Origin: Tigriopus japonicus
Lineage: Eukaryota > Arthropoda > Copepoda > Harpacticoida > Harpacticidae
Direction of reading: 5' to 3'
NCBI GenBank assembly: GCA_010645155.1
Contig: JAAGOF010000220.1
Location: 1,159,199 to 1,223,198, forward strand
DNA length: 64,000 nt
Of the stretch, positions 1,827 to 37,749 are shown in pieces. The translations under genes and the position numbers were made by a program. The notes beneath the pieces were generated by a model, which did no database searches, was not told the DNA's origin, and saw nothing but the letters and a program-made list of their open reading frames with translations. The stretch's first letter is position 1, and every line of letters begins with the position of its first letter.

Positions 1827-4800
1827 ATGGATATCGGCCGAGACGTTCTAACTCGAACCCTTTTGGGATCCACGGATTCCGAGAAAGTGTTTACTCCATG
1901 GTGGATCACAGCACATCATTATTTGGTCTACACTATTGTTATTTTAGGTGAGCAAACGTGTCTCTACCGGACAAGCGATATAAAAATCAACTATGATTTT
2001 ACATTCGACGTTGCTGATTCATCAAAAAACGGCACGTTTTGGAAAAAATATAGGAACGCAAGTGGGCAAAAGACTGCCAGTTTAAGAAGTGTTGTAAAAA
2101 TGGCAATATATCCTTTCACTGAGAAATTTTAGTTTTCAATTATCCTTATGAAAGGTGGGCAATCAATGTCAAGGCTTACTTAATTGGTGTCTTGATTTGG
2201 TGTCTCATCAAGCAGAGCAGGGGTGCATATTTCAGGTAAATAAAGCATACCTTTCAGGCCCAAATAGTGGTAAATAAGTAATTGGATGGCAAATAAAATG
2301 ACAAATAGGCACGAAAAATTGCCAATAATGTGGCAAAACGAGCCACTAAATTGAAAACGCCTAAAGTTTGGCAAATAAGCATAACGTTTCACCTCTGTTG
2401 GGGGATGAAAACGAAATAGACTTACACAGGATTGCTTCAAGCGAGCGTTTTGAATCATTCCACTAGGGCAAGGATGACTCAACGAAGGATATATTACAGA
2501 ATACTACTTAAGGCCAAGTTACTTCAATGAAAATTCAACGGAACATTTACTGCTTTGAAATAACCTCTCATTTTAGTACAATGACAGGCCTTAAGCTGTA
2601 TTTCTGTAATTCGTTCTGAGAAATTAAGATGTCCTTGACTAGGGCAGGGACCACTGTAAGTCAGGACGAATTTCAAAAATACACACTGGGTCCGATCATT
2701 GTACTAAAATGTGAGGTTTTTGCAACAAATATATTGTTCCGTTTAATTTTCATTGTACTAATCGGACCCAGTGTGTATTTTGAAAGTAATCCTGGCTTGA
2801 GCCATCCATGACTAGGGGTACAACAGGGCCGTTGGCTTTGCTGAGTTGCTCTGCCCATTTTGGCGAATAAAAGTTTTTCCCTATTTAAGCGCCCATTTGT
2901 TGAATCTAGAGCCATGGAAACGATCAATATTTTACGTCTTGATGCCTCTGCTTTCACGCGGTTGAAAATATGCTCAGTTTATTTGCCAGAAAATGAGACA
3001 TATAAAATCATATAATAGCAGAAAGACACATTAACAACGATTGCATTTCCCTGTATGCGTAATATTTTGAAATATTGATATGATTCTTTGGAATCCACTG
3101 AACAAATCAATATCTTGGAAAGATTGTTTGAATCAATGTTAAATCCTAAGTTTTGCAACAGCAAAAAAACTTGTTTCATTGCTTTTTACTTGATCATCCT
3201 AAAGCATTAATTTTGCGTACTATTGACCCATTACCAGGCAAGGTATTTTTGCGTGAAATATCGATCGTTTCCAAGGAGGCTGAGAAATTTTTGTACTTTT
3301 GAGGGAAGTTCTAGTTTCAAAATTATATTTTGAACTTGTTAAAAACTTTCTGTTTCCAATCAAACATTCTTGATGAAATCCTGATGCAATTTGTGCATTT
3401 CAGATCCATGCCTCACAATGTATTCTTAATCTTGGGTGTGACAAGATCAATGCATCCCCTGACTAAAGAACCTCATTGCATGCAACCAACATATATCAAA
3501 CCTTACGAAACTCAATTATGTTAATGGGAGGAACTGACAAATAATGTAGATTGCTGGCTTAGGTTTGATTGTATACTAAGGTCGCTATTTCTAAAAAGGT
3601 CCTTATAAACTTAAAGGCATTAAGCTAAGGAAATGTCAGTGTAATGGGACGCTATGGGTGACTTTTTAAGTTCAAAGACGAGGTTTTTTTACTCTTTATC
3701 CGACAACTATTTGCACTTTCAAACTTTTTCTGCATTTCATTTTGCATTTTGGGCACATTTTTTCCACGACTTTTGGTAACTAAAAGGCTTTGTTTATTTG
3801 CACTTTTTGCCCGTCTCTAATAATATTTAACCCAACCATACATGGTTTTCATAAAATTGACATGATGGACTTATCATTTGTCTTTATTTTCTTTTTATCA
3901 AATGCTTTTGAGTAGGCTTAGTGGCCGTTCCAATCAACAGCATGTTGGCAGTTCATGGAAATTGTGCCTACAAATATGATTCAACGGACAACTATGTTCT
4001 ACCACATCAATTGTGCCAAATTGATCCTCAAACAGGCCAACTAATTTTGGAAACCAAATTTTGCACAAGTGACCTCAGGTATGTTAATTCATTTAAAAAA
4101 TATTTAATATTGGTGATTCAAAGGTTAAGTTCTTTTTTCTAGGGAGACTTTGAAAAATGCTTTCGGTGTGACATCATTCACCGTCGGCGATGTCTTTGAA
4201 GTCCACAATGTAACTGACATAAAGAAATCCTTGGAAACGTTAAAAGAAGCTCAGGTAACCATCAAGACTAATGACAAGAATGATGATGTCTTCAATTTAC
4301 ACAGAACAAATCAACAATATACGTTTCATTACGAATGAGACCTTGTTTTAGATAGCTGATACACCGCTTAATTGCTTGAACCTGTGATCTAGCCCAAGGC
4401 GTTCGTTCTCTGTCAACTAGGACTTTCAAACCAGATTGGCTGGAGCATACGGAAAAGCAGCGAAGCAGTTAAATGGATAAACCATTAAAATATCAACTGA
4501 CGTGTTTCAATTTTCGATTCAATCAGACGCCTTAGTCAAAATTTTAGAGCTCATTCAGACTCCATCGAATGGGATCTGGCTTTTCCAGTATCGGGTCATG
4601 GTCGGTTCGGCGACTTTTCGGATGGAATCGGTTTTTTTATGAGGGGGGCTGATTTTTTAATACCGTTACAAAGAATGGGATTCCCTGTAAAGAGAGTTAA
4701 TGATTAATTTAGATTATATGATTACCGTTTATTCGGAATTTGATCTACCAATGAGTTACTGTTGGCAGATTTGTACAACCCTTGAATAGTGGGTTGGTCA

Positions 4801-7800
4801 GGAATAAGGATTTCTCCCGACAGCTTCAATCCGATCCCCAACAGGATTCGAACCTACGCCGTCTGGGGAAGCACTTACACTCGGCACTTTTTTTAAGAAC
4901 GCGCTAGTACGCGTGGCCACTCTGAATAGTATTCAAAAATTTGTCTAATCCTGCCTTAAATGCTGTTAGAGGATCAGCTCCTACATATTCCCGACGAAGG
5001 CAAATAGGCAACAAATTGAACAATGAAGGAGCCCGATAAAGAAGAGAGGCGGACTTCATTGAACGAACTAGTCTCGATTCCCTTGGATTTGGAGGTGCTC
5101 TCAGAACGCATGTAAAGCCTCTACGATCATTACAACTGATCTCAAATCTTGGGTTAGGACAGAGCCCATGAATGCTCTTGAATATATATAGTATCAGATA
5201 CCTTTCATACCTTCTCTGAATACTGTTCAATCCTAAATTCCACTTTAATATAAAGGCTTCTTAGCCTAATCTAAGTCTTTGTATTGGCATATTTTTTTGG
5301 ATAGTTTCGTTAAAAACTGTTGTTTTGTTTTGCATGAACGCTTGAATATTATGTTTAAACTAAATTATGTACTCAAAATCAAATCGAACACAACATTTTT
5401 TTGAATTTAGGAGGAGAATTTACGATTTTATTGTGCAAGAGGCTCCATCAAAAATAAATTTCGGCGTTCTTTGAATGCCAATCTTTTTCTCAGTATCTGC
5501 GTGTAAATGGTCGAGAGCACAGGGTGTCAATCGAGGCTTGATTTTTTGGCAAAAATTGCAAGGGAGACGTGTCAAAATATTCAAGAACAAAAAATCCTTA
5601 ATATCTTACAACAACCTAATTAGCTATTGGCCTAGTAAATTAGAGGCCACAATTATGTGATAAGTGAGCATAAACGTTTGTACGTGTGCAAGGTTCAATT
5701 CAAGTTCAGCTCGTCAGTACGACTGGGCTCATTGTAATAAAATTGAGATCATCTCTGGCTGATGATACGATTGATAACCTTTTGTTTTTGCGATCCTTCC
5801 TTCTGCGTAAGAATTACAGTATAATAAAACGGCGTCTCTCTTTTATTTTGGTCTATTGAATTTTCCGAAATTACTCGTTTCAGTTGCATAAATATTAATC
5901 GATTATTGATTAATCGATATTTTTCCTTAATCGGATTAACTGATTAATCGAAAATCGCCCCTAGTTTGAGTGTGATTTGTGAAAGGCACCTTTGACTTCC
6001 CTTCACATTCCTTTCTACTTGAAAAGTTTGATGCCGGCCTAATATTTAATGATGCCGGGCAGGAACTGGCATCAAGCCTAAAAAAGCTCGAAATGACCCA
6101 TCAGTGAAAACCAATTAATGCTGGCATTAACACATGTAACGGAGGGTCAATGTGAAAACGCACGTCATTATTCAAATGCAATAAAACAAATATGCACTAG
6201 CAAAATACATTTTTCAGAACATAACTTCCAACATAAGGAAACATGAGACGTCAACAATCAATCTAAGGGGTAGGATAAAGTGATGGCATATGAATAAAAG
6301 CCACTTTCTGCCACCAGGCAGAAATTGGTGGCAGAAAATGGCATTTATTCGTGCAAAAAATGTGGCAGAAAGTGGCAGAAATTATTTTTCCTAGAAACTC
6401 ATATAAACCAATATATTCAATACTTAAAGGGATAAAATTTGGCACTTTTGATGTCTAACTATGGCCTTACCATCCCTACAAAAGCTCATTGCATCGAAGA
6501 AGGAAGACACAAGTTCGTGAAATCGATCGCCTCGATTCGTTTTTGAATTTCCCTCGAAGTCAGGGTGGTCAAATTAAGCACTCTGATTTCGTCTTAAATA
6601 TGTACCGAGAGTTAGAACTTGAATGCGATTTAATGATGTAATTCTCGTGCACTATGTGAACACAATATTTTAGAATTGTAGGTTTTTAAAATGTTTAAAT
6701 ATCGTAGATGCAAAATGTTTTCAAAATTTAAATACTATAGCCTAGGGTACATTTTTCAAATCCAATTACAACACAGTCATACAAAGACCATTTGAAGAAA
6801 ATACATGTTATTTTTATGTCAAGTTTGTTTACTCAAATATAAATAAAATTACACACTGACTTTCTAAGCTTTTACAATTGCAATGTTTGATGTATAAATT
6901 ACGAATTAACATTACGTTTAATCAAAGGCTGATTTGCAGATGCTTGCTTGCTATAAACCGAATTAGTTTAAAATGCATGACTATAAAACCAAAATAATAA
7001 AATTCGAAATTTAGTCCAAAACAAATAATTTTCGTTTTCTTTTAAAAAAATGATATTTGGGCTTTACAAACAGTTGTAACAAATACTTCCTGGGACGCAA
7101 ATCATTAATTTATTCGTTTCATTAATTATGCTATTAATTAAAAAACATATGATATCATCAAGCATTCTAGAAAATAAGGATAATCTTATCCTTATATCTG
7201 ATTTCAACACAATTTATTATTTAAGTGATTTAAGGGTGCAAGATAAATATTTTTTGCAATACCCGTATGATAATTATATAACCAATTTGAAATATGATAA
7301 AGTATATCAAAGGAGTTTTTCATTTCTTCGCAAGCGAGTTTCGTCATAATTTTGATTGAAGTTCTTATCTCAGTCTGAATTATTATCACTAGGATTATCA
7401 TAGGATTAATTATTATCACTTCAGACGAATAAACTTCGTCTTTTCTCATTTGTTTTCGTCTATTTTACCTTTATTCGTCGCAATTTTTTTCCCGTCTAAA
7501 AACATTTTTCTCCCGTTGAACTTTATTCGTATTTTTTATCTTCTCGAGCAATTTCATTCGTCTTTTCTTATTTAATAGGCCAAAAACTTGAATTTTCTTG
7601 CATTTCAAGCTCTTTAGGCGTTGCTTTCAATTTTCCAAGCAAAAAATAACTTTGAAGAAAGTTCAACGCCAAAGCTTAAGGCAAAGTAATAATTTGATTG
7701 TCAGTTGCGGTTTTGCACCAACAAAATACAATCCACACTTATAAATCAACTTGTACTCGTGGTTTTGCCCAACAGACACAGAAAGAAAAGATTACTTTTG

Positions 7801-10800
7801 GGTTGAAAAAACTTTCTGGCCATGAGAAAAATTAATGTATCTGCAAATCTGACTTCAGTTCTACTGAAAACGCTCCTTAAAAAGAGGCATTTTTGAACTC
7901 TTGGTTTTCATTTGACAAATACATGTACTACCGAAAATTTCTTGCCCATTAATTACTTCCGTTTTTTAATTTTTAGATTTCGCCGTTTTTGCACAAGCAG
8001 GCAGATTTTCCACGTCAATAGAGACATACATTTCGTCTATTTTGTTAACGTTTTTTTTTCGTCTGTATGGCCACTTAATATGTCTTCTTTCTTATCAATA
8101 GTTTCATTCGCCTTTTTGGGAAATTGATTCGATTTTATGTCTTACAAGTAAGGTTTTTGTTTTCGTTTTTTTGTCTAACGGGATCTTTCATTCGTCTTTT
8201 TTCGTCTTATCAGATAATTCTATTCGTCGCTTTTTGTTTAACTTTGACACTTTTATTCATCTTAACTTCCTGTCCCTAATTATCTTTATATGGGACGTTA
8301 AAAGAATGATGGATTTTTAACCAGGAAATATCCTGTGAAAAGACAATTAAGCAGCTACCTTGAGATATAGACTAAGTAATGACATTAATACATGTGTTGA
8401 AGTGTTCAAATGTTTTCAAATGCAATGTGTTATTCTAATTATTTTAGCACCAATGTTTTCATATTAATTTTGAGTTGATATTTGTTACTTTAAAGTATTT
8501 GTGTAAATTTTAATTACTTTTGACTCTTTTAATCTCATTCTACAAACTCAGATTTGAAGTTGAACATCAATCTATACATACTTTGTCCATTAGCGTCCAT
8601 TCTCTACCATTTTCTGCCATTTTCTGCCACTTTTTGCCATTTTCTGCCACTTTTTGCCATTTTCTGCCACTTTTTGCCATTTTCTGCCACTTTTTGCCAT
8701 TTTCTGCCACCAAGTAGCAGAAAATGGCAGAAATTCAGTAAAATTCAAAATTTGCCATCCCTGGTAGGATACCATACTCTTATGTCTTCAATCAATTTCC
8801 AAATAGAAGCGTTTCCTATGTGTTCATGGATCTCTCGCCACATGAATTCATGAAGGGGTCTGGGCCCACCACCGTGGTGGATTGAACTCCATTCATAGTC
8901 TTGAACCTGCCTAGCCTCAACTAAAGATGATTAGTATGACATTGAGGCTCAACTAAAGTCTCGAACCTTAACGTCCAGAAAATTTAGAAGTGTAGTTTTA
9001 TATTTTATACTAAATCTGCACAAAACATGAAATACCCCAAAAATGTTTCCTTTTTCAGGCTATCAAACCCAAGACCAATTTCCGTCAGTGTCTTATATAC
9101 CAGGATCCTAAACTTTTCGGGTTTCATGTTTATTGGCATTGCGTCAATAGGTTGAGTGCTTTGGCTCTGTATTTTCCTTACTTGGTTTTAACTCTGGCAT
9201 TGATGCTTGTGGTCTTGGAACGTCTTTTAACGAGGTTGGTACTTTCCTTTTAAATGGGGTTCCAGATTTCAAGCAAAGAAGATTTTCAACTCTAAAACAG
9301 ATTAACTTTCTATTTTTCGTTTGAAAAAATAAATATAAAAAATAAAAAATAATAATAATAAATAAATATTCTCCAAATTTATGAAGCTTGGCATTTTAGG
9401 CCTCAACTTGGAAAAAGGACTAGCTTTTTGAAAACACTTCACCAAAAATATTCAAAAATTAAGAGAGAAATGAAAAAAAAACTAAAAACGAAACACTTGG
9501 GCAATTGGAGACCAATTTTTGCCACTTGGTCTACATTCTACAACCTAAGCCTTTTCCACTTTTTAATATTTGGGCCTAAAAGGCTTAGTCGATTTGCCAG
9601 AAATTTGCATCCCTACGCACAAACAATTCCCATTTAGTTACGAAGTTGACTCTTCCCAAATTTATTCTCAGATATTTGTGGACTGGTCAACGAATCGAAA
9701 AGTTCTACGAGCTTTTGGTGAAAGATGTTCTCAGCAATGGCGATATTGAGATCCTGGATACCAAAGACAAGAAACAAAAGTGTCAACAGATCTTGTACGA
9801 TTTCAAGAACTCCTCGTTCTTTTGCAAAGCCTACATCATTCAGACTCTTGTGAAGCTTTCCATTTGCATTTCCGTCCTACTTTGGAGTCTCCTGGATCAA
9901 TGCAACTTGTTGAGAGAGAGTTTTCATACTGAATTTGAGTGCAAGGTGAGTTCAAGGATTCCATTGAAGGTTCTTTTTCATCTTGATGTTCCCAAATCAT
10001 CCCTTTAGGTTTTTGACTATACTCACAGTTGTTCCATTCCTTCAAATGGGATGAACATGATCATTTTCGACCTGTGCAATGTGGTTCTGTTCCTCATCGT
10101 GATTGATGCGTTTTTCAACTTGTTCTGGCATTATCGTTTCTATGGTCAAAGGCACACCTTCATTCAAACTAAACTTGGAACTCTCATTGAGAGCTACCGA
10201 AAATCCCAAGGTTCAGAAGAAAGGCTCCAGGCCTATTTTGAGTCACCAGACCTTCAAATGCTGCTCAATCTTCTGGCTGAGAAAGAGGGAATCTGGGCAG
10301 CGCTTCTCATTTTATGTCTCTTTGACAATGATTTCAGGAGCGAGTTCAAAGTAAGTTAAAAACTCGAGACAAATGTTATTACTTCCAAACATTCTTTTTC
10401 TACATTCATTCGTCTCATTGGGTACGCTCCAAAGGGCATTGACATTGGTTTAAATCTTTTTTCATCCTTCAGGTTAAGGATACCAAGATCACATCCACAA
10501 CGTCTGCCACCAGTTCCAGTAGAAAAAATATTACCCTAGCTTGGAACGAGCCTTCGGCGGCCTTCTTTATTGGCGAAAACGTCACTACTGAGCATCTAAT
10601 GTACGTTTTGGAGATCGACCCTCCCATTGACAAAGGAGACTCCAGAGGCAATGTGACAATGATGCCTGCATGCACAGTTGATGGGAGTTGCGTCTTTAAC
10701 CAAGTCAAACAGGAGCCTTCCCCGCCCATTCCACCTCCCCCAATACAAGGGGCATTTGCCCTGGGATCTTCTATTGTCAGAATGCACACTGGCAATGATA

Positions 10801-12909
10801 CCACCACAACACCCAGGTAATTATTTCATCCTTTTCCTTGACACTACGACCATTCTCTATGGGCCCACTTTTGTTCTAATTTTCTAGGCTCCCGTTGTCC
10901 CGGACAAGTTCAGAGAGTAGTAGGACTACTTCAAAAGATAGCTTATTCTCTGATCGTTCCTACAAATCTGACAAAGAGGTGTCGATTGTGGACGGCGTCC
11001 ACAGTCCGCCTAAATTTACCGAACAACTCTCCAATCGACCTTTGAACCTGAGGCGCAAAACTGCCATGATTTTGGGACGAAAACGATCCGCAGAGAAAGC
11101 TCGGAATTTCAGGTGAACATTCTAGCTTCCATCATAAGCAAACCGAGAGGGCCTGACTTGCAGCTTTGACCTTAGGAGCTCTTTCAATGGCCTGAGATCG
11201 GACACGGAGTACGTTATCACTCTCAGTTTTGTCTTATCCGGTCGGAAATTGGGATCAGAATCCTTCACCATCTTGAGCCACGACAATCCAAATCGCAAGA
11301 TTTCTTCCACCTATTCAGCTTATTCGAATGCCTCAGCCCCGCCCACTCCAAAGCAATCAATTTGTGCCACTGAGAATCCCATGTTTTCGCGCCCTTTGCC
11401 TCATGAACCGGTTGCGCGGAAAATTAGTTTGCCGTCTCACCAAATCTCGTACAAAAGAATTTTCCATACAAGTGAGGATGTCAAATCCGCCCTTAGAGAT
11501 GATATTGGTTCCAAACTTGTGGTTCTCGAATTCGTGGCAAGTTGGTGTGGGTTGTGTTCCATGATCAAACCTAAAATGGAGGTGAGTTGTAATTAGTGAT
11601 GTGAAATCTGGGCTTGGGCAAGTTTTTTCACGGCAGGTTGCAAGGTAGGGTCACCTAATGGAGATTTTGTGCTTTGCTAACTAACTCAAGTAAACACAAA
11701 TTTGAGGTAAATTTGCAACCCTGATCCAAAGTTACAAAAGTCAGGGGCGCGTTTCAGTGCTTCTTAATGAAAAACCGGTTTATGAAGATAGGTAGGCAGA
11801 AGGGAATTCCATTTCACTGAAGGTAAATTGGCGACCCCTGTGTACGATGTCACGAAAAAAAGCTTGCCCAAGCGCCCAGGTCACATCACTAGTTGTAATT
11901 CCTTTATGTATCTTGGCTGGCCATCACATAGGAAAAAAGGTACAGGTGGTCTAGTCCTTTTTTGCAATAATTCTAACAGGGCACATTGACCAAAGAATAG
12001 CCATGCCGTTAATATAAACGGTATATACAAATATGGTATAGAATTGACTTATCTAAGCCAAAGACGGACCAATTGCAATTCTTGTTGAAATCCCGAACAA
12101 ATTATTCCTTCAAATGAAAATGTTTCTTTTTCTACGGCTAGAATCTCAAACACGTCAAATAATTTTGCCACACATTTCACTTTCGCTAAATAATTCTCTA
12201 CATTTGCGATATTGATAGATGAAATATTCTGTAAAAATGAAGAGCAATTCCAAATAGAGAATAATTCCAAATTAAATGACCAACATAAGGAGTATGCTCC
12301 TTACCGACTTTGCTACGATTATACAAGGATGACTTAACGAAGGTTATATTACAGAATACCACTTAAGGCCGAGTTACTACAATGAAAATTCAACGGAACA
12401 TTTACTGCTTTGAAATAACCTCTCATTTTACTACAATGCCAGGCCTTTAGGTGTATTTCTGTAATTCGTCCTGAGAGATTATACCACCTTTCAAGAAAAA
12501 TCCTGTTCTTGCATGAACATCTGTAATTTCAAATAAAATAGTGCACCTTATCGAGAACTGAAAAGAAATCATTACAATTGTGCAATAAAGGACATGTGAA
12601 AAGTCCCTGATCTATTTAGCTTTCCCTCTTGGATACATGACAAATGCCCATCTTTTCCAGTTATTGGCAGAGGAATATAGTGCCGGTGGTTTGGTGGATT
12701 TCTTCCAAGTTGACATCGACGAATGTCCCGAGATCTCAACCGAATTTGGAGTCGAGGTTCTCCCTTCGATTGTCTTGATTCATCACGGGGAAATTTTGGA
12801 GAGCTTCATCGGCCAAAAAACGGATCGAGTGGAGGAAGAAATCAGAAACTTTTTCGATCACAAACAACCAGCCAATCCCGTGGAACCAGAAGATCCCAAG
12901 GGCAGATGA
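1827..12909 (+). CDS. LRRC8-like channel domain fused to FN3-like segment and thioredoxin domain
   Basis: Ten exons: 1827-1947, 3916-4078, 4143-4254, 9059-9234, 9672-9945, 10009-10350, 10473-10816, 10888-11112, 11164-11581, 12661-12909. All introns are GT-AG and in phase, giving 807 residues. Residues 1-396 resemble the pannexin-like membrane part of LRRC8 volume-regulated anion channels: a PWW motif before helix 1 (about 27-48), a YFPYLVL motif in helix 2 (about 162-187), helix 3 after KAYIIQT (about 245-270), a CysHis-type extracellular turn, helix 4 (about 298-325), then an LRRC8-like cytosolic helical stretch. The leucine-rich repeats that normally follow are absent. Residues about 397-615 begin and end like an FN3 domain (ITLAW, then DTEYVITLSF), with a long Ser/Pro/basic insert. 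Residues about 684-800 are a thioredoxin fold with WCGLC at about 713-717 and a cis-Pro-type LPS turn. By LRRC8 topology the thioredoxin domain would be cytosolic. The family match is firm by motif; channel function is inferred. Confidence 0.8.
2468..2627 (+). repeat. Dispersed repeat, copy 1
   Basis: About 160 bases in intron 1 of the channel-thioredoxin gene are nearly identical, in the same orientation, to 12324-12482 in the last intron of the same gene. Shared landmarks are AAGGATGACT, ACTTAAGGCC, TTCAACGGAACATTTACTGC and CTGTAATTCGT. No terminal inverted repeats or coding capacity are evident. Confidence 0.7.
2671..2786. repeat. Short foldback element
   Basis: Two arms of about 25-30 bases containing ACACACTGGGTCCGAT are inverted relative to each other (2671-2705 and 2752-2786) around an AT-rich loop. 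It looks like a small MITE or a solo hairpin; no clear target duplication was identified. Confidence 0.55.
4640..5262 (-). mobile_element. 3' end of a CR1/jockey-like non-LTR retrotransposon
   Basis: On the minus strand, 5230-4904 encodes about 108 residues with the pattern typical of the C-terminus of CR1/jockey-type reverse transcriptase proteins: an IQRRYERY start, IHGLCPNP, DRRG, and a FNLLP segment followed by LDKFL. The endonuclease and polymerase core are missing. The following 3' sequence includes GGTTCGAATCCTGTTGGGG and a TTACAGGGAATCCCATTC motif. Related tails lie at about 39100-39232, 61384-61440 and 62160-62412. It is a 5'-truncated, inactive copy in a 4.8-kb intron, antisense to the host gene. 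Confidence 0.7.
6278..8763. mobile_element. hAT-type non-autonomous element, family A, long copy
   Basis: A 2,486-bp insertion in intron 3 of the channel-thioredoxin gene. Its ends are AAGTGATGGCA and TGCCATCCCTG, imperfect inverted repeats of the CAGTG class, flanked by an exact 8-bp duplication GTAGGATA (6270-6277 and 8764-8771). Subterminal regions are built of repeated TTTTCTGCCA and its complement. The middle (about 7430-8280) is a pyrimidine-rich tract full of TTCGTCTTT. No transposase ORF is seen. The left third is closely similar to the copy at 28634. Confidence 0.85.
8621..8710 (+). repeat. 20-bp tandem repeat, 4.5 copies
   Basis: Four exact copies of TTTCTGCCACTTTTTGCCAT plus a half copy, inside the right subterminal region of the 6278-8763 element. 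Confidence 0.95.
11594..11891. mobile_element. hAT MITE, family B
   Basis: A 298-bp element in the last intron of the channel-thioredoxin gene. Ends TAGTGATGTGA and TCACATCACTA are inverted repeats, continuing imperfectly through the AAGCTTGCCCAA region. The flanks carry an exact 8-bp duplication GTTGTAAT (11586-11593 and 11892-11899). Most of its length matches the element at 62481-62777. Confidence 0.9.
12324..12482 (+). repeat. Dispersed repeat, copy 2
   Basis: Partner of the repeat at 2468-2627, same orientation, in the intron just before the last exon of the same gene. Confidence 0.7.
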
Positions 12910-14772: not shown

Positions 14773-17700
14773 TCATTTGGTTGTCGCTGTTCCTGATCCA
14801 GATGAAGCTGGCGTTGTGGTGACCATCATACTTCGATTGCGTTGCTCGTTTCTGGTCATCTTGTTGGGTTTGTGTTTGGGCAGATTGCTCTGTCCAGCAG
14901 GGGCATGGGGAATCACCTTGATCACGTTGCCCACGGCCTTGGTTCGACCCTCACGAAACACCAGTCTCTGATTCTGTTTCAAGAACTCCGGATGCTTAAC
15001 AAATCTGAAACAAGAACCGCGATTGTCATTACTTCATACGTCCATTTTATAGATTTCAATCAAAACCAACACTGAATCGTAAACCCGTTGTCTCTTTCAA
15101 AATGTGTGTGACTAGAAACACAGTAAAAAAACCGAGATGAGAGTAACCAGACCACTGAAAGGTGGACACCATTTTTCTTAGACGCGGGCAATGTTAAAAA
15201 CAACGTTTGTTATTTCGACCCTATCTTTGTTCTAACAGACTTTGTCTTTCCTAAGTTCAGATTTATTATTGTTTATTGACAAAACCACACGATATATTGT
15301 ATTTATTGGTAGAAAAAGGAGCAAAGGTTTATGTGAATTGACGGTTTAAACCAGTGTAAAAAAAGAACGATTTCATTTTGTGGGGTCTTTTGTCCTCGGA
15401 CCAAAGGTCACATATTGAAAGAGAGGAGAAAACCGGGTAAAGAGTTGTAGACCTGACGTCTAAACGACTATGATTAAAGTACGACAGTGTTCAGATCAAA
15501 GCTAAGGGGAATTGTAACAATGAATAAAACCTACATATTTTCCATCGCTTTTTAGAGCTCAGGCATGTTTTGTCAGTCCCGTTTGTTCTGAGCTCCTTTT
15601 TTTAATTCCTCTTATTATGTCTCTATCCTCTTACCTGAAGTGAACTTGCGCCTTGTCGCCCGTTCTCAGACAACTAGCGTTCATGCCAATAATGGAGGCG
15701 GTCTGTCGAATGGATCCACAATGAACCATGGCCTGATATCGCGTGGCAATCGTGGTCGGGTGATGCAACACCAAGATCTCGCCTTCAAACTCCCAACACG
15801 ACTGCGGTTTGAGCTCAGGCGCCACCATCACCATACCTTTGCGAATCTGTGAGCGTTTGATCTTCTTCAGAGCAAAGGACGCGGTTTGTCCGCTGCGCAC
15901 TTCCGTCACGGGCATCCGTTTCCGGTGGATGCTCTTCACCGAGATCGGATTGAAATGGCCCAAGGGATCGGGACCCAAGAGAAGGGTGTCATTGAGTTTG
16001 ATCGTCCCACGAAGATTGGTGCCCGAGACCACGGTTCCCACACCGGGAACCGAGTACGTGTCGTCGATTTGGAACTCGGCGGGCTCGTCGTCGGTGTTGG
16101 GCGTGCGATTCGTTAACAGGTTCATGAACATCTTTAACAGGTCCAAGTTTTCGCCTGACACGTTCGAGACCTGTGGAAAAAGGGCAAATAGGAGAAATGG
16201 ATCTTGAAAGTTGAGCCTTAAAATTAGTGATGAACCGAAAGGGCTCTTAACCGAAATCGAAAGAAGGCTCGTGTATTCGATGTTGGGTGGTCGCAAATTT
16301 TGAATAAATCGGAAAACTTCAGTTTCAGAGGTTTCTGGACCAAAAGAAACCATTGTGTTTGTTGTCAAAACTCCATTCTTTATGTGCATGTTTGCTTTTG
16401 GTTTTGGCAGGCATAACCGAAACTGAAATTTGGTCATTGGAAAAACTTCGGTCCATCACTACTTAAAGTAATCTTTTCTGTGCTTAAAAAAGGAGAATAG
16501 ATTCAAATGACGCCAAAAAAAAAAAAATCCTAAATTTGCGAGAGGAGCTTAAATCCTTGATTTTCCGAGCTAGTAATGCTTAAAATCACGATTAACCTTC
16601 TTATTGTTCACTGAACCGTAAGTGCACCATGATGTGTTAATCTTGACCATTTTAGGAGCGCTCCTAATAGAACTAAAATGATTTAGAACCCCCCTTAGTC
16701 GTCATTAGCTCATTGACATTGTTTATGCTTCACCTCGATTCTTGAGTGAGCGAAAATGTTTAAATCAAAGAATTATATAGTTTTATAAAATAATATTAAA
16801 TAAAATATTCATATAATTAAATATCATAATTTGTACTGATTAAAAACCCACCTGGAAAATGGGACATAACCGCTCGGAGACGAATTTGGTGGCGGAGAGC
16901 ACCACGTCATCGGCGGTTTTGACCATGACGGGGAATTTGCGACATCCTTGAGATTTCAGGATTCGAACCAAGAGCTTGAGAGTCTCCTGGAGCACATTGG
17001 GTGGACACATGTCGATTTTGGTGACCACCACAAACACGGGCACACTCAAGGCCAAAGCCAGGCCGAGATGCTCTTTGGTCATGCCCACAATTCCGGCATT
17101 GGCGCCGACCATCAACATTCCTGTATCAAATCATGGGTGGTAAGCACTTGAAATTTGGACATGGCGTCAACGGAATCATTTACCAAAATCGGGTGCGTGG
17201 CCCGTCATGCCAAAGACTGTGGTTTTCAAGTACTTTTCGTGGCCAGCTAAATCGATGAAGGTGATCACTTTGGCGGATTTTTCGCACACGCGGACCCAAT
17301 CTAGATTGCCGTGATCGGGTTTGTTGACCACTTGACCCGCGCAATCAAAGCCCAGAATGTCATTTCCCACTGAACTGGTTCGGCCGGATTCGGCTTCATG
17401 CTTGTGTCGAAATAATTTTTGTCGGGCAAATCCGCGACCATTATCCAATTCACCATGGGTTAAAACACCTATTTAAAAAAAAATTCGAATCAATCCCAAT
17501 AATTATTTCCATTCTGAGAGGGGAAATCTTTGAACTCTGAATTCATTACTGCAAACGAAAGAAGGAAAATGAAGTAAAGTTTGACCCCAAAAGTTTATTG
17601 ATTTGAGAAGCATCCAAGCAAGTACCGGGTGCGTCAAATAAAATTGGATCAAGTTTCAAATTCAACAACTCTCTTATCCAAAGTTCCTAATATTTAGCCA

Positions 17701-19320
17701 CAAAACTATCCTATTTTGACATAAAGACAGAAGAAATTGCTCCACTTCTGGCGTCAAAATCGTGTTAGGGTGTTAGGTCCAAGAACAATTGCAGTTACAA
17801 TAAAAAAAATTAAACATTTTTATATTTTTACAAACGTCAACATTTTCTTGTTCATTCATAAATTACTCGCTCAATAATAAACATCGTTCAATGTTTGTTC
17901 CCTAACAAAATCATCCCCTAGCCTTTGATATTGTTACAACACTAGAGCTTTAAGAAAGAATCTCAAATTTTGAGGTCAACAAAACCGGGATGTCATTAGC
18001 GCACCCGGTATGACCTCTCACTACTACTGTTACTGATTGATCAGTACCTAATAATGTGGATTTTCCCGCGTCGACATTGCCCACGACGGCAATGCGGATC
18101 TCCATAAAGTCCTTCTCGTCGTAGCGTTTGCGGATGAGGAACTGCGCCGTCTTCTTGGCCGCATTCTCCTCGCACGCGTGCCCGCGCAACTGCACGCACT
18201 CGGCGTCCAAAGTGGCCGCGATCGACTGCAGCGTGGCCTCAGACGCCGCGAACTCGTCGTCGGTCAACCCGCGCTCGGACACACTCCCATCTTCTTCGCC
18301 GTCATGCAGAGGCACGCCCACATCGTAGATGGTCTCGCCTTTGAAGAAGAGAAGCGCATGAGAAGGGTAAAGGAGCGTTGATTAGTCTTGGGAAAATGGC
18401 GTGAAGGAAAAAGTGGTCAGGATGAGCTTGATAGTTAGAACATCATTGGAAAGAATGGAGTTACAGTAGTTCAAGAAGTCCAAAAAAACAATCTAGTGTT
18501 TTCGTGGAATTTAACACTTCATATTAGTGTTAAAAGATTGTTTATGCACTTGGGGAAAATTATTTAGTATTTTTTTCCCTTTATATTAGCCTGTGATATG
18601 GATTTTAATTACGTGAATTCAAATTTTAATGTTTATGATGTAGGTAAAAATAAAGAAAAATAAATTCACGAATTTTTATAATGAAAATGCCTTCAAATTT
18701 GACCTTTGAGAACCTTTAAAAAAGGCGGTGATTGAAAGATAGCAAAATAAATGTCATGAATCTCGTCATAACTAATGATTTTGGCTATTAAATTATTATT
18801 GCAATGTGCGGTTTACATCAGAACGGTTGCAAAAGTAACGAGCCGGCAAGAAATAGAGATTTTTGCGACACAAAAATACAAAAGCATTGATTTTCTGGGG
18901 GGGTTTAAAGGATTTTTTTTCGTTTTTAGGAACATGTCATAGGATAACTAATGTCAAGGATTTCGTCAAAGATTTGCTCCCGTTTGTCAGGATGCAAAGG
19001 AAAGTTTAAGAAAACATCTTCCATACTCAGTAAAAGGCTAATTTTGGGAATATTGGACCCGCTATCGAATACAAAGTCAGCTTAAAATCTATTATAATTA
19101 CTGTAGTCGACTGACCTCTGCCTTCTTCCATGAGATCGCGCACCCGTTGCAGAATCAGCTCAAATTGGGCCTCATTGGGCGAAATGAGCGCCTTTGAGGC
19201 CGATATTGACGAATAATCCGGACCCACGGGCTCCATAGTTCCAGTAGAAACACCCTCAGTCGCCGAGGACACGCCTTTTAAGCCTCCGCCTCCCACGGAG
19301 CTCTCCAAAAATGAAGCCAT
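14773..19320 (-). CDS. GTPBP1: GTP-binding protein 1 (translational GTPase family)
   Basis: Six exons on the minus strand: 19320-19116, 18338-18048, 17468-17184, 17120-16852, 16170-15635, 15004-14773, giving 605 residues. All junctions are GT-AG and in phase. The N-terminus is acidic and low in conservation. The G domain carries G1 GNVDAGKST at the end of exon 2, a family-specific [16 protein letters not shown] stretch opening exon 3, G3 DLAGH, and G4 TKID in exon 4. Domains 2 and 3 ([19 protein letters not shown], then HHPTTI and CGSIRQTA) follow. The C-terminal basic tail is shorter than in vertebrates. Family proteins are EF1A-like GTPases linked to mRNA turnover and ribosome rescue. GTPBP2 is the alternative paralogue, but G-domain wording fits GTPBP1 better. 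One intron holds a hAT MITE. Confidence 0.95.
16225..16461. mobile_element. hAT MITE, family C
   Basis: A 237-bp element in GTPBP1 intron 4. Ends TAGTGATGAACCGAA and TTCGGTCCATCACTA are inverted repeats, flanked by CTTAAAAT and CTTAAAGT, an 8-bp duplication with one mismatch. The interior repeats CCGAAA-type motifs. Related to 51826-52135. Confidence 0.85.
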
Positions 19321-22300
19321 CTCTCAATCATTCAATCTCAATCAGACCATCCGTTTCTCGTTTCTGCCTAGATACACAAAGTCCGAATATTGCAATCCTA
19401 TGGACTGACTTGATATAAAAACGAGAGATTGTGTCTCAATCTGATGAAATCCTTTACCAAACGCGAGGATGGTGCAATTTAGAGAAATCTTTCCGTCGTT
19501 GTCAAAGTTACTCCGTTTTCGTAGCCAATCAATGTTGTGTTTGTTTGGGTCAGCTGAAGATTAGAGACACTGAACAACTTCTAACAATCCTCATGTTTTT
19601 ATGCATGATAGAGATTAGGATATATTATAAAGGGTCACTCATTAGACATATTCCTAAGGTGGCTCCGTTCCATCAGACTATAAACTTGATTTCATTCATT
19701 TATCATTGAGTAGTTAGTTTTTTCAATTTCGCTAAGGCGTCGTATGACAGCGCTGATTTTTAAAGGCATTTCGTGGACCAATGAGAGAGAAAAGGAAAGT
19801 GTTCAAGGACAACACTTATTACAATTTTTTTCTAAAACAAATCCAAGGCTCAAGGCCGTTTCATATTTTTAGATCCATGGTTGATATTGCCTAGAGTTTG
19901 TGTGGCGCCCTCTGTGATGAGCCAAACGTGGCAAGCACGTGTCACATAGAACGGTCGGTAAAATACCCTTGGTTCTTAACGACTCTGTTGGATCTGAGAC
20001 ATTGATTTTTATGGCCTCGAATGAAATATGACATCGATTGCATCCATTGGTCCCTTATTATCAGAATATATTAAAGAAATTGTATTGCATCATTCATGAG
20101 GTCATGAAGATTGAACTGAAGAGGCTTTTTAACCCAGGGTAGCGGTAAGTTTTAACCAAATAAGTGAAGATGGATTTGTTGAGGGATAGTTGAGTAAAAG
20201 CAAGCCAAATCAGGTTTTGCCGCTTTTCACTTTTACAAAAGAAAGCTTGGCTTCAGGCGATCAAAGGATGATTTGAATGCAAGTTTTGTCTCGTCTATTC
20301 TGAACCGTTCTTGTTCATGTTGAAATTCATGGGCACGCTTGTCTCTTTGGTCGATCACAAACAAAATCACAACAAAAGTCATCACGGGGAAAAAAATCGA
20401 GATCTAGGTTCAGGGTGGCATGAAAAAACATATTCAGCCCAGTTTCAGGATATTTGGCCTTAAATGAATATCTGCACGCTTGCAAATTGTCAGTTTCACT
20501 CTACTAATCGATCCAAAGCTTTTCATTGAGCTTTGAAAATTCACCTTAAGTTGGTGCTCGTGCATTCAAAATGGCTTTAAAATGAAATTGCGGTCCTGAA
20601 AAATTTCGGTTTTAAACCTGATTATGTAAGTGCTAAAAATATCTTTGTACTATCCTCAAATGCTTCTGCTAAAAAAGTTTCTCAATGAAACTAAACAAGA
20701 ACAAAATTTAACCTAATTTTAAAACAAAGCCCCATTATGCTTTACTCACTTAGTTTCCCAGAAATGAATGTTTCATGTATTAGAAAATGGTTGGTGGATT
20801 AATTCAACGGGAATCCATGAAGTGAAATTTAGTCACCAAAGGAAATGCAGTCACACTCTTTAGTGATGACCAGGTATATGTAAATTACATTTAACAATGT
20901 ACTTATAAAAATTTTCAATTTTGTCCAAAATTACAAAAGTGGGATTGAAAAATAGATAAATTGCTTGATCTGTTGTTATTTTCGGGAAAAGGTTAATTCA
21001 TCAATCAAAATCAAGGTTGACAAACAACACAACATTTTGATTGAAATTATTACAATAAAATATTTAGTTTATCTTCAAGGCCACCACATACTGGTTAAGT
21101 ACCATAGTACATAGAGCTCGTTCGTCTAGTTTACTTTTCCAAGCGTTTTTTCTGTTTTTATTCCTGTCTAACATTTACCTTATTTTAATGAAATATTTGA
21201 TTTTCGTCAAAGTTAAAACATTGGGAAAGTTTCAAAATGAACTAGTAACATTGCTTGTTCCTTTCCGAATGATCTGGAAAAAGCATGGCAAAATCAACAT
21301 CATAAAAGAAAAAAAAGAGTATTTGTTACAGATGTAACAATATGAGTTTAGTTTATCAGCAATTCCAAGCTATAAAGTAAGACTTACACATGATGGGAGC
21401 ATAGGAAAGGGTCAGTTTTTACTCTAATTAATGAGAAAAATGCTAGAGATGCTGCCACAAAATCCAATTTTCTAATGTTATTTCTCAAAACAATTACATC
21501 AAATAATCCATTTTTTGCGACAATATTTTTACCAAAATGTTGTGGCCCTGGTGATGACAATAACACCACATGAGGTAAATAAAGCATAAATGAATTCAAG
21601 CCTTGTCATCTATTGGCAATGGTTGAAAATGGCAATTGGTGAGACATGATGAAATTGAAGAAATCTTCCAAATTGAAGATTATTTGGGTTAGGGGGAATG
21701 AAGAAATTAATTTTTCAAAGAAAATAATTTCAAATCCGGTCTCTACTCATTATATTCAAAGTTTACTCCACATTTGTGGCAAAATCATATGTGATTGGCT
21801 TTATAGTCCCTAACTTTTGCCAAAATTAGCAATAACATAATCATCCATCCCAATCATTTAGCAATTAAAGTTGTCACAATGAAGGCCTTGAACTGACCCA
21901 TTCCAATCACTCATCAATCGTCATCCCTTTCGGCCATCTCACTTATAAACGACACAAAAATTAATTCAAGGTTGCGTGAGCAAAAAAGGGCAAAGTTCCG
22001 TTGAGGTGGGGAAGACAAGATTCCTACCTTTATAGCGTTGGCTTTATATTACTTTCACTCTTTTCGTTTAAACATAATGTTTTGCGTATTCCTTTGGCAA
22101 ACTATTTTGTTTTCAAAAGTTTTTGTAAATTAATTTTAAATGTGCGAAAATGGCCTCTGAACTTCCCTGCTCCTTCAACAAGATGGGGCTGCTTGACATA
22201 CATTACAGCTTGTTCAAAATTATTGTCTTTTCTCATTTCTGAGACAAGGATAAATGTCCTCATTCATCTCCAGGCCTCAATTGGATGAAAATTTCCATCT

Positions 22301-22733: not shown

Positions 22734-25700
22734 ATGTTTCCCTTCTCTTTTTCTTTCTTCTCTATGTCTCCTCTGGCCTCGTCGTTGACAGCGGGATCGA
22801 AACGTCTGCAGCACTTCCTCATACGTGGAGGCCCTCTTCCTCGTCTTCATCATCCCCGTTGTGGTCGTTCTGGGCTCCTCAGCTTCGCCGCCGCCGTAAC
22901 CGCATCGCCCTCGTCGCTCGCCCGTCAAATCAGTGGCACCGTCGTAGTACGCGCGGCCAGTACTTCTTCTCCTTCTAGTTCTGGTTGGGGTCGGAAAAAG
23001 TTCCAGCCGCATCAACGGGCCAGAAAGGTCTCGGTTTTGAGCGATTGGTTAGTCATGGATCCTGAAGTAGAAGCCCTTTTAGCGCCTTTAAGAGCCTTAG
23101 TCAAGGAACAAGGCGATGTCGTCCGACAACTCAAGGAGCAGAAAGCCCCTGAAGTGGACGTCAAGAAGGCCGTGGCCGAACTTAAGGCCCGAAAAAAGAC
23201 CCTGGAGGATAAGGAACTCGAACTCACGTAAGATAGGACTCCTTTGATTTCTTTAGTATTTGACCAAACATGTTCTTTCCGTTTTATGGTTGAGAAAAAA
23301 AATCCAGCATCATGAATAATTAATTAACCACTGTGTTTGCCATTGAATGACCTTTTGGGATAGTGCAGTAGTTGAGGATTTGTAACTTCATTTCTAATTT
23401 TAGGTTTGTTTCAACACGACAAATTTAATTTCACATGAGCATGTTTACTCATTGGAAAATAATCTGCGTAAAAATTAAGCCCGGAGTAATTTTTATTTGA
23501 ACCCTCGTCGATATATAAAACGAGCCCAATTTGCCTAAAATTCTGTTCAAAAAACTAGGCACTAATTTTTCGACCAGCCTACTCTTGAAAACTTGTTTTC
23601 CTAATATTTTGAATGTTTTCACGCAACTAAAACCTGTTAATACGTATGTTTTTGTCGTGAAAATGAGGAATGTTCTAAATCTGTATTTTCAGTCCGGCTG
23701 AGGCGTTTTTCGATCGAGCCAAGATGGAAGATTTGTTGAAGCGTCGTTTCTTTTACGATCAATCCTTTGCCATCTACGGAGGCGTGTCCGGTCAATACGA
23801 TTTTGGACCCATGGGCTGCGCTCTCAAGGCCAATTTGCTCAACTTGTGGCGCTCGTTTTTCGTCATGGAAGAGCAAATGCTCGAAGTCGATTGTACCATG
23901 CTCACTCCGGAACCCGTTCTCAAGGCCTCCGGACACGTGGACAAGTTTGCCGATTTGATGGTCAAGGACCTCAAGAATGGCGAATGCTTCCGTTTGGATC
24001 ACTTGATCAAGTCCCAGCTAGAGAAGGTACGATCATTTTGTTGAAGAATAAAGACAAACGTTTCATGTTTGATGCTTGGATATCGTAGATCAAGTCGGAG
24101 AAAAATACCACGGCTGAGGCCAAGGCCCATTGTGACGACATCATAGTCAAATTGGATAATATGGGTGCCTCTGAGATGTCGGCCATCATGAAACAGTTCA
24201 ACATGAAGTCTCCCGTGACCGACAATGACCTGTCCGAGCCCATGGAGTTCAATCTCATGTTCCAAACGCATATTGGGCCCACCGGCCTGATCAAAGGCTT
24301 TCTGAGGCCTGAGACCGCTCAAGGCATCTTCGTGAACTTTAAGCGCCTGTTGGAGTTTAATCAGGGCAAGCTTCCTTTTGCGGCTGCTCAAATTGGAAAC
24401 GCATTTCGAAACGAGATCTCGCCTCGATCCGGATTGCTTCGGGTGCGTGAATTTACCATGGCCGAGATTGAGCATTTCTGCGATCCCAATGACAAATCTC
24501 ATCCGAAATTCGATGACATTCGTGATACGGAGATGTGTCTCTATTCGGCGGCCAATCAAATGGAAGGGAAATCCGTTTACAAGACCACCATTGGCGAGGC
24601 TGTTGACTCGGTAAGAAAACGTTTTTATCGCTGAAAAGCAGAGTAGGTTGATGTGGGCTTAAAGCACGAGCTCCGCTTCTCTCTGTAACTATTTCATTTC
24701 CGATTCTCAAAACCTCTGCAAGTAAATTTAAACGCAAGTTGTTCTTCTTTTGTCTTCTCATGCCATTCCTCAGGATTCAAACCATTTCCAAACTCTCTCC
24801 TCTCTTGACGATCTTTACTATTTGAACAAATATCTCCTTCATCGACCCTATATCCGAGATTTCACTCCATCACAATGGGACAACATCATACACGATCAAA
24901 TTTGTTCCATGTTTCCATCAATTCCTGAAACATTGTCCAACATCATCCGATGGAAAACTCATTTGACCAGTTTTGATGCTCAAGAACGTCAAGCCTGGTC
25001 TGGCAATCCAACTCAAAACCTGGCTGAGATTGTAACGGAGATTTTTGGATCTTCTTCTCGTCCAAAGGTTATTTTTCTTCTCTTTGCGTTCTTTCCCTGC
25101 ATTGCTTCACATCCTGAGTGCTTGTGTTTAACTTTTTTAGCCTTTACTTTTTATTTGTATTTGAATGCTCCAAATAACCCATTTTGTTTTCTACAGAGCA
25201 CCGTGGCCAATCATACCATTGGTTATTTCATGGCCAGGATCCAACAATTCCTGGTCAAGATTGGGATCGATCCCAAGCGACTTCGCTTCCGTCAGCACAT
25301 GGGCAATGAAATGGCTCATTATGCTTGCGATTGTTGGGACGCAGAGATCTTGACCTCATACGGTTGGGTTGAGTGCGTTGGATGTGCTGATCGTTCAGCC
25401 TTTGATCTGAACCAACACTTCAAGGCCACAGGTAACCATTACCCCTATGATAAACTGATCACACTCATCCTTTACCATGATCTTCCATTACTAAGGTGTC
25501 AAGCTTTGTGCTGAGAAAACTTTGCCTGAGCCAGTTATGAAGGACTCCGTTGAACTTGTCCTCAATAAATCGGTCTTGGGCAAAACTTTCAAGAAGCAAG
25601 CCAATGTTCTGACCGACCATCTGGCCAAATTAGAGGCTCCAGCCATCGAAGCCATCGAGTCGGCTTTGAAAAACGCCGCCCAACACGATGTGGAAGTCGA

Positions 25701-26271
25701 TGGCCAGACTTTTACCCTAACCAAAGAAATGATTGTAGAGGTGAAACGCTCTCAAAAGAAGGTCTTCGTCGAGGAGATCATCCCTAGTGTGATCGAACCT
25801 TCTTTTGGAGTTGGCCGCATCATGTACTCCCTTTTGGAGCACAGTTTCCGGGTGCGTCCGGACGATGAACAACGCACCTATTTCTCTCTCCCTGCTTGGA
25901 TGGCGCCCATTAAGTGTTCCGTATTGCCTCTTTCCAAAAATCCGGACTTCATCCCTTTGGTTAAACAACTATCCAAAGCCTTGACTGAGGCTGAAGTCTC
26001 CCATAAAGTGGACGACAGCTCCGGATCCATCGGCAAGAGGTATGCCCGAACCGACGAAGTGGCCGTGCCTTTCGGGATCTGTGTGGATTTCGACAGTCTC
26101 AAAACACCTCACACGGTCACTGTGAGAGAACGAGATAGTACTCTTCAAGTGAGAATGCCCGTGGACGACGTGCCCGAGGTTTTGAGACGCATGTCCCAAG
26201 GGAAACTGCTTTGGAATGAGGTCATGACCAAGTATCCCAAGTTTGAGGAGCAACAAAGCACTCAGAAATAA
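22734..26271 (+). CDS. GARS1: Glycyl-tRNA synthetase, mitochondrial and cytosolic forms
   Basis: Exons 22734-23227, 23693-24026, 24089-24610, optional 24774-25067, 25197-25431, 25496-26271. Without the optional exon it encodes 786 residues from 22734. The upstream stop at 22719 makes this the first in-frame ATG. The first about 107 residues are Arg/Ser/Leu-rich and lack acidic runs, like a mitochondrial presequence. A second ATG at 23055 (AGTCATGGA context) opens the cytosolic form of 679 residues, close to the usual length. A WHEP domain follows directly (exon 1). Then come class II motif 1 (exon 2), motif 2 [12 protein letters not shown] (exon 3), the [19 protein letters not shown] block, motif 3 with GVGRIMY, and the HGTP anticodon domain ([18 protein letters not shown]). 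It ligates glycine to tRNA-Gly. The TAA stop overlaps an AATAAA signal at 26270. The 3' part is duplicated downstream. Confidence 0.96.
24774..25067 (+). other. In-frame cassette exon of GARS encoding an EF1B/GST-C-like domain
   Basis: Open for exactly 98 codons, bounded by CCTCAG before and GGTTATT after, phase 0 on both sides, so inclusion or skipping both keep the GARS frame. The peptide has the pattern of the N-terminal GST-C-like domain of EF1B-beta and of some aminoacyl-tRNA synthetases: a YLNKYL helix, [11 protein letters not shown] (compare the YIEGYVPSQAD type), then a Pro-rich turn and [11 protein letters not shown] (compare the LRWYNHIKSF type). It would sit inside the catalytic domain between motif 2 and the [12 protein letters not shown] block. 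The exon is kept open in the duplicate at 36217-36510. Whether it is constitutive, alternative or unused cannot be told from DNA. Confidence 0.75.
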
Positions 26272-26306
26272 TAAAAAAGGACGCGTTTGTATGTTGATAA
26301 ATCCGG

Positions 26307-28367
26307 TTATTTTTCTATAATATGCAAGGGTTGATAGCAGTACTTGCATTGGGTTGAGTATTTAGAGTAATCTGCAGTGGAGTGGATCTGTCTCCAATTG
26401 GCAAATAGATGGGAATACTGGAGAGGTCCGTAGATTTTGGCAGCATTGAAGAGCACCTGATCAGGCCCCGTGGGCACGCCCACGAGGGCCCGCCCGCCTT
26501 TTTTAGTCACACACCAAGTTCTGGCCATTGTTATCAAATCGGCAAATGGGTTTAAACTGTCACCATATCGACCCAATCCACTATGCTCAATGGACGAGAA
26601 AGTGACCACAGCATCAAATTCGGGCAATTTACCCGATAAATAAGCTTCACCCATCTCAGACGGGGTCAGAATGTCGATTTCAGATACTTCACTGCGTATT
26701 TTGACGTATTCGAGAGTGGTCACCTTTTTGGCGCCAAGTTCTAACAGGATAGCCTCAAGCCAAGGGCGCTGAAAAGTAGGAAAGAAAAATCAGGCCTTAA
26801 TCATTCACTTAGGGCGAGTCTTATCTACATACCTGAGAGCCGATGACCAACACCTGGCTTCCGGAAATATTCATAAGATTTCTGGCGTTTTCATCGATTC
26901 TTTGCACTACTTTTTGACCGTAACTGCCGCCCAACTTGCCTTCACGGAACTTGGTTCGTTCCTTATTTAGTAACTCTTTGGTCCAAACTCTTTGGTGGCT
27001 AAAACCGTGGGAATCATCCATATAATTGGACAATAATGGCAACCTGCCTTGATAAGAATAATCATCCATCATGAACGAAGGTATCTGCAAGAAAATGAGT
27101 TAAAAGAAGGTTAAAAGTAACAAAATTATTGTGATAATTTTGGTGGGAAGAATTAATCAGATTGGGAAATACTTAAAGAACGACTAGGAGGGTTTATAAT
27201 ATTATCATGACAAGTGTGAGAAGTGTGACCCCTTCAAAAATATTAAAAAGTAAGAAATGACTGCTTGAAATGTTTGTTTTAAGATTGAAATATTATTTTG
27301 ACATCTTAAAGTGGTTTTAAAATTCACAGTTACCCGAACAAGATTGTCAACAATTAAGGGTTACTATTAACTCTCACCTTCTTGGGAAAAGTTTTGTAAA
27401 AATAGTTTTCATGGTTGAGCTCTGAAGAGGAAGGGGACACAAAATTGCCTTTTTCCTAAACTTGGCTTCAAGCATGTATAATTTTGCACATTCGGGAGAT
27501 CGAGAGTTTAAACACGTCATTGCTAGGTCCAACTGGATGATTCAATTTTTGTACAAAGTTATTCAATGATTCAATACTCGCTACTTATTTGATAACGAAA
27601 ATATTGTTAGGAAAAATGCTTTTTTTATGGATTCGTTTAAAGTGGCGCACTTTGCACGATTCTAAAACTCAAAATATTTCAGCAGCAGAACAACCAAACT
27701 GAATTTCATATAGTAAGAGCAATACAGAAATTAATAGTTTTCAAACACATTTTTCCTCTCACTTGCTATATAGTTAAGGAGTGTGTAAACTACGATGATT
27801 TCAAGCATAAATTTTAATAATAATAGTTTCAAAGCAATTTCCGAATGTTTTTTATCTCCATCAATCAAAAGGAAGTTTCATGTTATGATGATTTCATGAT
27901 GATACTTTGCATGGAAAAACCATAATTACACTAAAACGGAAAAGTTTTGATATATCGTTTGTCTGGGTGCCGATAATTTACCATATTTTGTTTGAGAAGA
28001 CCAAACCAAAAAGAGAAAACAATCAAGTCACCTTTTTCAATGGCCTGAATAATTCTTCTTGGTAATCCGTGATATGGAGATTTTCAAAAAGGCGTTGACA
28101 ATCAATAGATTTCTCGACGTGGTTGTAGTATTTGCCTTTCCCAACAATTTTGGTGTTCTCCTCCTCAGTTCGACAAACATCTCCACAAACATTCTTGATT
28201 TCCTGGACGTGTTTCTTCAAAAACTCGATAGCATCCACATTGGTTACCGATTTTGATTCAAATCTCTTAGTTGTGCACTCATTGTCTTTGTTTTTGTGTT
28301 CAACCAAAACGACGAACGACAAAGCACAAATCATCACTACTATCACGCATGTTTTGTAGGACTGCAT
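26307..28367 (-). CDS. DUF268 type II membrane protein, copy 1
   Basis: Exons 28367-28032, 27084-26833, 26768-26307 on the minus strand, all phase 0, 349 residues. A short cytosolic start is followed by one membrane helix (about residues 7-23, IVVMICALSFVVLV), then a predicted lumenal or extracellular part with several Cys. Exons 2 and 3 form the DUF268 domain. The exon 2/3 joint makes a methyltransferase-like motif I (VLVIGSQ then PWLE, with TLEY 20 residues on). FSSIEHSGLGRYGD and GRALVGVPTGPD are strongly conserved-looking blocks. The family has no proven function; it is known from nematodes and other invertebrates. Its stop lies 35 bp from the GARS stop, tail to tail. A paralogue is at 37750-39944. 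Confidence 0.88.
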
Positions 28368-28633
28368 GATTAGACCTTTCGCATTCAAATGTTGAAGAAC
28401 CTTAAACTCTTTTTAGCAGCTACCTGCTCCCAATGATACGTCCGTCTATTTTGACTACCATTTGGTTACGTCTACTTTCGACCAAAAGAAACCTGTCTTA
28501 TACGAGGGAAAAGGCTGAGAAGTGCATTTCTTCCATCAAAGAGCCTCTTGTTTTTAGCTTGCATTTAGGGAATAATCACGCAAGCGGAACTCTAAAATAC
28601 TGTTGGTTGCGAGGAAAAAGAAACAGTTCCACG

Positions 28634-37714: not shown

Positions 37715-37749
37715 TAAAAAAGGACGCGTTTGTATGTTGATAAATCCGG

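Follow-up and report, generated by a model that had tools for sequence, protein, structure and literature searches.

The window analysed here, 64,000 nucleotides of Tigriopus japonicus DNA (contig JAAGOF010000220.1, positions 1,159,199 to 1,223,198), carries on its plus strand a ten-exon gene whose product almost certainly combines an LRRC8-type pore, a FN3-like segment and a tethered thioredoxin domain. The gene is confirmed from start codon to stop codon. Its product resembles an LRRC8 pore to which another kind of cytosolic module is joined, and the explanation that we consider best adds redox gating of the channel to this architecture; for the two taken together, the chances are about even.

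The analysis draws on relatives pooled from three protein searches (10, 21 and 24 rows), which took only proteins of 0.55-1.75 times the query length, two of the three scoring just the candidates that shared most words. The pool holds 25 family proteins (P0001-P0016 and P0023-P0031); P0017-P0022, which cover 8-12% of the query with thioredoxin-type domains, were left out. The closest relative is Tigriopus californicus TCAL_07398 (P0001; 86% identity over 100% of the query in the protein search), and the T. californicus paralog TCAL_11511 (P0002) has 44% identity over 96% of the query. The family proteins of T. californicus are already in databases, labelled hypothetical, uncharacterized or by thioredoxin alone. 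An exon 10 scan of viral contigs found no relative. Searching the window by tblastn with the window protein, P0002 and P0010 revealed no second gene copy, apart from a single stray P0010 match near 59 kb (E 0.055).

An earlier note on this DNA had proposed ten exons staying in phase over 2424 nucleotides. Rebuilt from the DNA, this model is reproduced exactly, with GT-AG at 9/9 introns, no frame break and 807 amino acids plus stop, and is corrected only at the acceptor of exon 9. The residues SFDL, with which exon 9 begins when spliced at 11164, are missing from all seven relatives that reach the site (P0001-P0005, P0009 and P0010; P0007 ends before it and is outside the count). Hence, the acceptor was moved to the next AG, 12 nucleotides downstream (11176), which keeps the frame and gives 2412 nucleotides and 803 amino acids. 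Residue numbers refer to this corrected protein, in which TM1-TM4 denote the predicted transmembrane helices.

1827..12909, plus strand: whole gene, ten exons, 803 amino acids as corrected
1827..1947, plus strand: exon 1, residues 1-40, N terminus and beginning of TM1; the MDIGRD start is common to P0001 and P0002
3916..4078, plus strand: exon 2, remainder of TM1 and first extracellular loop with C57, C74 and C90
4143..4254, plus strand: exon 3, first extracellular loop
9059..9234, plus strand: exon 4, C143, C160 and TM2; LYFPYLVL is the stretch closest to LRRC8
9672..9945, plus strand: exon 5, intracellular loop and TM3
9781..9783, plus strand: codon of the conserved C228 in the predicted intracellular loop
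10009..10350, plus strand: exon 6, residues 283-396, covering the second extracellular loop, TM4 and helices that resemble a subunit linker; the LRRC8-like part ends here
10473..10816, plus strand: exon 7, where the first FN3-like beta half is followed by the beginning of the low-complexity insert
10671..10691, plus strand: codons C463 to C469, whose two conserved cysteines lie within the FN3-like segment
10888..11112, plus strand: exon 8, low-complexity insert, where the predicted structure is of low confidence
11176..11581, plus strand: exon 9 with corrected acceptor, second FN3-like half, linker and first half of thioredoxin
11546..11557, plus strand: codons C710-G-L-C713, thioredoxin active site
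12661..12909, plus strand: exon 10, second half of thioredoxin including the cis-proline P756, followed by the tail and the stop

The exon 7/8 insert is the least certain part of the gene model. The deposited P0001 lacks 49 of its residues; since other relatives carry the GxCxF stretch that adjoins it, the window model is probably correct here. An exon 10 start at TTTAG before CTTTCCC was tried and rejected: it does not fit the phase, and P0001 has PKMELLAEEY at this place. Exon 6 is 342 nucleotides long with phase 0 at both ends and holds TM4. Exactly this stretch is missing from P0006, the predicted RefSeq isoform X3 of LOC131885667, when compared with the paralog P0002. With three membrane spans, isoform X3 would place the thioredoxin domain on the opposite side of the membrane.

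The pore-thioredoxin fusion is conserved in the family, as far as the aligned proteins reach. Among the 25 members, nine have a complete thioredoxin domain and four its first half (P0004, P0009, P0014 and P0015, whose match is lost at the exon 9/10 junction); twelve stop upstream, and none runs through the region without thioredoxin. Three of the nine complete cases (P0002, P0006 and P0008) look like models of one T. californicus gene. The same domain order, which the earlier note had proposed to seek in other crustaceans, was found in the copepod T. californicus (P0001) and in further family members. It is therefore highly improbable that neighbouring channel and thioredoxin genes were wrongly joined: although the last intron is 1079 nucleotides long and thioredoxin spans it, P0001 and 12 more relatives combine channel or linker with thioredoxin in one protein. 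Moreover, thioredoxin begins inside exon 9, which it shares with the second FN3-like half. P0010 (718 amino acids, 2268-nucleotide contig) and P0023 (718 amino acids, 2298-nucleotide contig) hold the whole protein in one frame. As the window gene spans 11 kb with nine introns, these contigs are most simply taken as spliced RNA. Two separate transcripts, one ending after exon 6 or 7 and the other starting before the thioredoxin exons, had been named as the outcome that would speak against the fusion; for the relatives, not for T. japonicus itself, this is contradicted by the single uninterrupted 718-residue open reading frames (ORFs), which make separate transcripts unlikely there.

Searched by profile segment by segment, the protein gives a strong result for thioredoxin, a weak one for FN3 and, for the pore, one that is weak in the single sequence and firmer for the family. 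Family profile and predicted fold support the membrane part as an LRRC8-type four-helix pore, in line with the original assignment. PF12534 (Pannexin_like) scores 21.4 bits on the P0001 pore alone and matches 9/9 aligned family members, and LRRC8 accounts for 18/19 matches of the pore profile against the PDB. The predicted fold agrees with LRRC8 pores. Hydropathy also peaks over residues 367-385, at 1.46, and over the first strand of thioredoxin, at 1.52. From the structure model, these peaks are read as a buried helix and strand, respectively, and not as membrane spans.

The window protein is like LRRC8A-E, the subunits of the volume-regulated anion channel (VRAC), in the predicted fold of its four-helix pore, in the conserved cysteines that both extracellular loops carry and in having a large C-terminal domain behind the pore. 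Unlike them, it has a FN3-like segment and thioredoxin and no detected leucine-rich repeats, and identity in the fold alignment is about 14%. No Pfam family of leucine-rich repeats was found in the window protein or nine members at E up to 1, in agreement with the earlier claim that thioredoxin stands in their place. Because these repeats were not found and PF12534 stays below its curated score, we do not file the protein as an LRRC8. Arthropods use innexins, and the pore might instead be a diverged innexin whose likeness to LRRC8 reflects the shared superfamily fold alone. We give this a low probability. No profile match to pannexins or innexins is among the matches listed, and innexins and connexins are likewise missing from the listed PDB-profile and fold matches, which we do not take as proof.

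The assignment of the thioredoxin domain is strong, and both active-site cysteines and the cis-proline are present in the sequence. PF00085 matches at E 7e-19, reaching the curated score, the fold agrees with that of thioredoxin, and the WCGLC motif pointed out earlier (C710 and C713) corresponds to WCxxC in 13/13 relatives reaching it. The cis-proline P756 is kept in 8/8 relatives that continue past the exon 9/10 junction; three more rows leave the match there. The dipeptide between thioredoxin cysteines is usually GP. The window protein has GL, its relatives GL, PN, SI or PV, and the canonical CGPC is absent. Compared with the cytosolic thioredoxins of insects and human, the window domain thus differs both in GL versus the usual GP and in being tethered to a membrane protein. 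The variable dipeptide fits a thioredoxin fold that replaces the leucine-rich repeats for packing or assembly with little catalysis, and LRRC8 channels, according to excerpts of one paper, also have a big non-enzymatic cytosolic domain, the repeats (PMC5064130). However, the invariant cysteines and cis-proline argue against a purely structural module, which we consider quite improbable.

The case for assigning the beta-rich middle segment to FN3 is weak. After residue 396, the structure model has predicted strands on either side of a long low-confidence insert. With this insert removed, fn3 (PF00041) matched one of three sequences at E 0.05 and, in a larger set, two of seven, neither of them the window sequence, with 0.01 as the best E. 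A profile search of the FN3-like core against the PDB gave no matches. A second structure prediction, of P0015 and aimed at this part, was unusable (mean pLDDT 37.3). From the earlier description of a FN3-like segment, a beta-rich part in the right place stands; FN3 membership is tentative, and 'FN3-like' serves as a description, not as a family assignment. The linker that follows, before thioredoxin, is long and little conserved.

Cysteine conservation was counted over the rows spanning each position in the alignment. By LRRC8 topology, C57 and C74 (11/12), C143 and C160 (17/17), C268 and C290 (19/20), C281 (16/20) and C90 (5/12) would be extracellular. C256 (16/20) and C305 (4/20) lie inside predicted membrane helices, and C242 (6/19), C385 (1/21), C649 (0/18) and C743 (5/12) are poorly kept. 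C228 in the intracellular loop is found in 18/19 relatives. C463 is found in 16/19; the misses come from P0013, P0026 and P0029, which are fragments with a gap at this position. C469 is found in 12/19, and its seven misses are likewise gaps, in six fragments and in P0001, where the deposited model does not cover this stretch. From their conservation, C228, C463 and C469, which would be cytosolic, are candidate partners of the thioredoxin domain.

Starting from the conserved frame and the thioredoxin domain, which are seen in the sequence, and from a predicted four-helix pore, we infer a membrane side, an assembly, an exchange reaction and a mode of gating that are plausible. The gene product would serve as a subunit in an oligomeric channel that has a large pore and the LRRC8/pannexin fold, with the subunits presumably forming a ring. 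The FN3-like beta segment and the tethered thioredoxin would stand where LRRC8 proteins have their cytosolic leucine-rich repeats, and the tail would be cytosolic if LRRC8 topology applies. Thioredoxin could then swap disulfides with nearby conserved cysteines, either C463/C469 just past the pore linker or C228. Such an exchange might shift gating, with oxidation pushing the channel in one direction and its own thioredoxin resetting it. In the most likely working model, a disulfide close to the linker would be formed on oxidation and reduced by thioredoxin, or the two roles would be exchanged.

Excerpts of the literature on vertebrate channels provide the analogy. Cysteine oxidation is described to activate LRRC8A/E and to inactivate LRRC8A/C and A/D (PMC6451053). 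In a 2024 review, the effect on LRRC8E is ascribed to a C424-C448 disulfide in the intracellular repeats, cell types differ, and the way in which oxidation gates LRRC8 channels is called unsettled, its sign being subunit-dependent (PMC11177392). Redox-dependent gating through the thiol route has somewhat less than an even chance of being right. We are more doubtful of the specific version, in which the channel's own thioredoxin would open or close an LRRC8-type pore outside chordates by forming and cleaving a regulatory disulfide, either C463/C469 or a bond that involves C228.

Several observations weigh against the reading as a redox-gated LRRC8-type channel. In the window protein, PF12534 scores 20 bits (E 3.9e-4) and does not reach its curated cut-off of 25, the single-sequence PDB match to LRRC8 has an E of 1.4, and the predicted structure has a mean pLDDT of 62.8 and a pTM of 0.47. 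The P0001 model, as deposited, does not include C469. As the CxxC dipeptide varies, the redox potential is likely to vary as well. Since the sign differs between LRRC8 subunits in the portions consulted of the 2024 review (PMC11177392), the direction of an oxidation effect here is unpredictable.

The pore might also assemble and conduct with thioredoxin acting on other membrane-side proteins and no gating, which would make the protein a membrane-anchored reductase. The conserved active site is compatible with this, and a free tether would fit the long, weakly conserved linker: identity between the window protein and P0001 is 73.8% in the linker, compared with 95.7% in the pore, 94.4% and 100% in the first and second FN3-like halves and 89.7% in thioredoxin. 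However, an anchored reductase leaves the conserved cytosolic C228 and C463 unexplained, although other roles are possible for them, and the family keeps the fusion to this pore and not to a simple anchor. We regard it as rather unlikely.

Beyond the coding exons, two introns contain dispersed repeats of about 300-390 nucleotides: 11594-11894 in the last intron resembles 62481-62780 (78% alike), and 6279-6647 in the third intron resembles 28635-29023 (87% alike). The downstream neighbour (15631-19322, minus strand) resembles by eye a GTPBP1/2-type GTPase, with PF03144 at E 6.8e-12 in one exon. A large direct duplication (23978-28633 and 35421-40210; 3702 aligned nucleotides at 95.7% and 661 at 97.7%) contains a DUF268 ORF and a gene resembling class II tRNA synthetases, by eye of the glycyl type, with PF00587 at E 7.7e-11. 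A second duplicated block (33571-35600 and 40779-42788, 2030 nucleotides at 98.0%) has a WASF/WAVE-like ORF (by eye, no Pfam row) that in each copy continues directly into part of the synthetase-like gene. Its second copy ends at an N run (42789-42956), and the block is either a real tandem duplication or an assembly artefact. Further along the plus strand lie an undecaprenyl/dehydrodolichyl diphosphate synthase-type ORF (43572-44366, PF01255 E 2.2e-12) and adenylyl/guanylyl cyclase ORFs (53301-60502), one of which, of 596 amino acids, matches PF00211 at E 8.8e-52.

Channels joined to enzymes are familiar from Kv-beta subunits, in which an enzyme-like domain is coupled to an unrelated pore. 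In the literature excerpts, the TRPM7 and TRPM2 channel-enzyme fusions are alike in coupling an enzyme or enzyme-like domain to a channel, but their pores and enzymes are unrelated to those considered here. Judged by titles and the beginnings of abstracts, with subscription journals mostly outside the search, the literature searched describes neither a thioredoxin domain within a channel protein nor an LRRC8/pannexin-thioredoxin fusion, and the earlier claim that no LRRC8 relative of this architecture is described agrees with that. A self-regulated thiol channel, if true, would be a channel-enzyme kind absent from this literature. With thioredoxin fixed at the pore of a natural channel, thiol control of gating would become directly testable. 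In the parts consulted of a 2016 paper, the origin of LRRC8 genes is placed at the emergence of chordates (PMC5064130). A copepod pore of the LRRC8 type bears on that view and, if true, would hint that such pores are older or wider than chordates.
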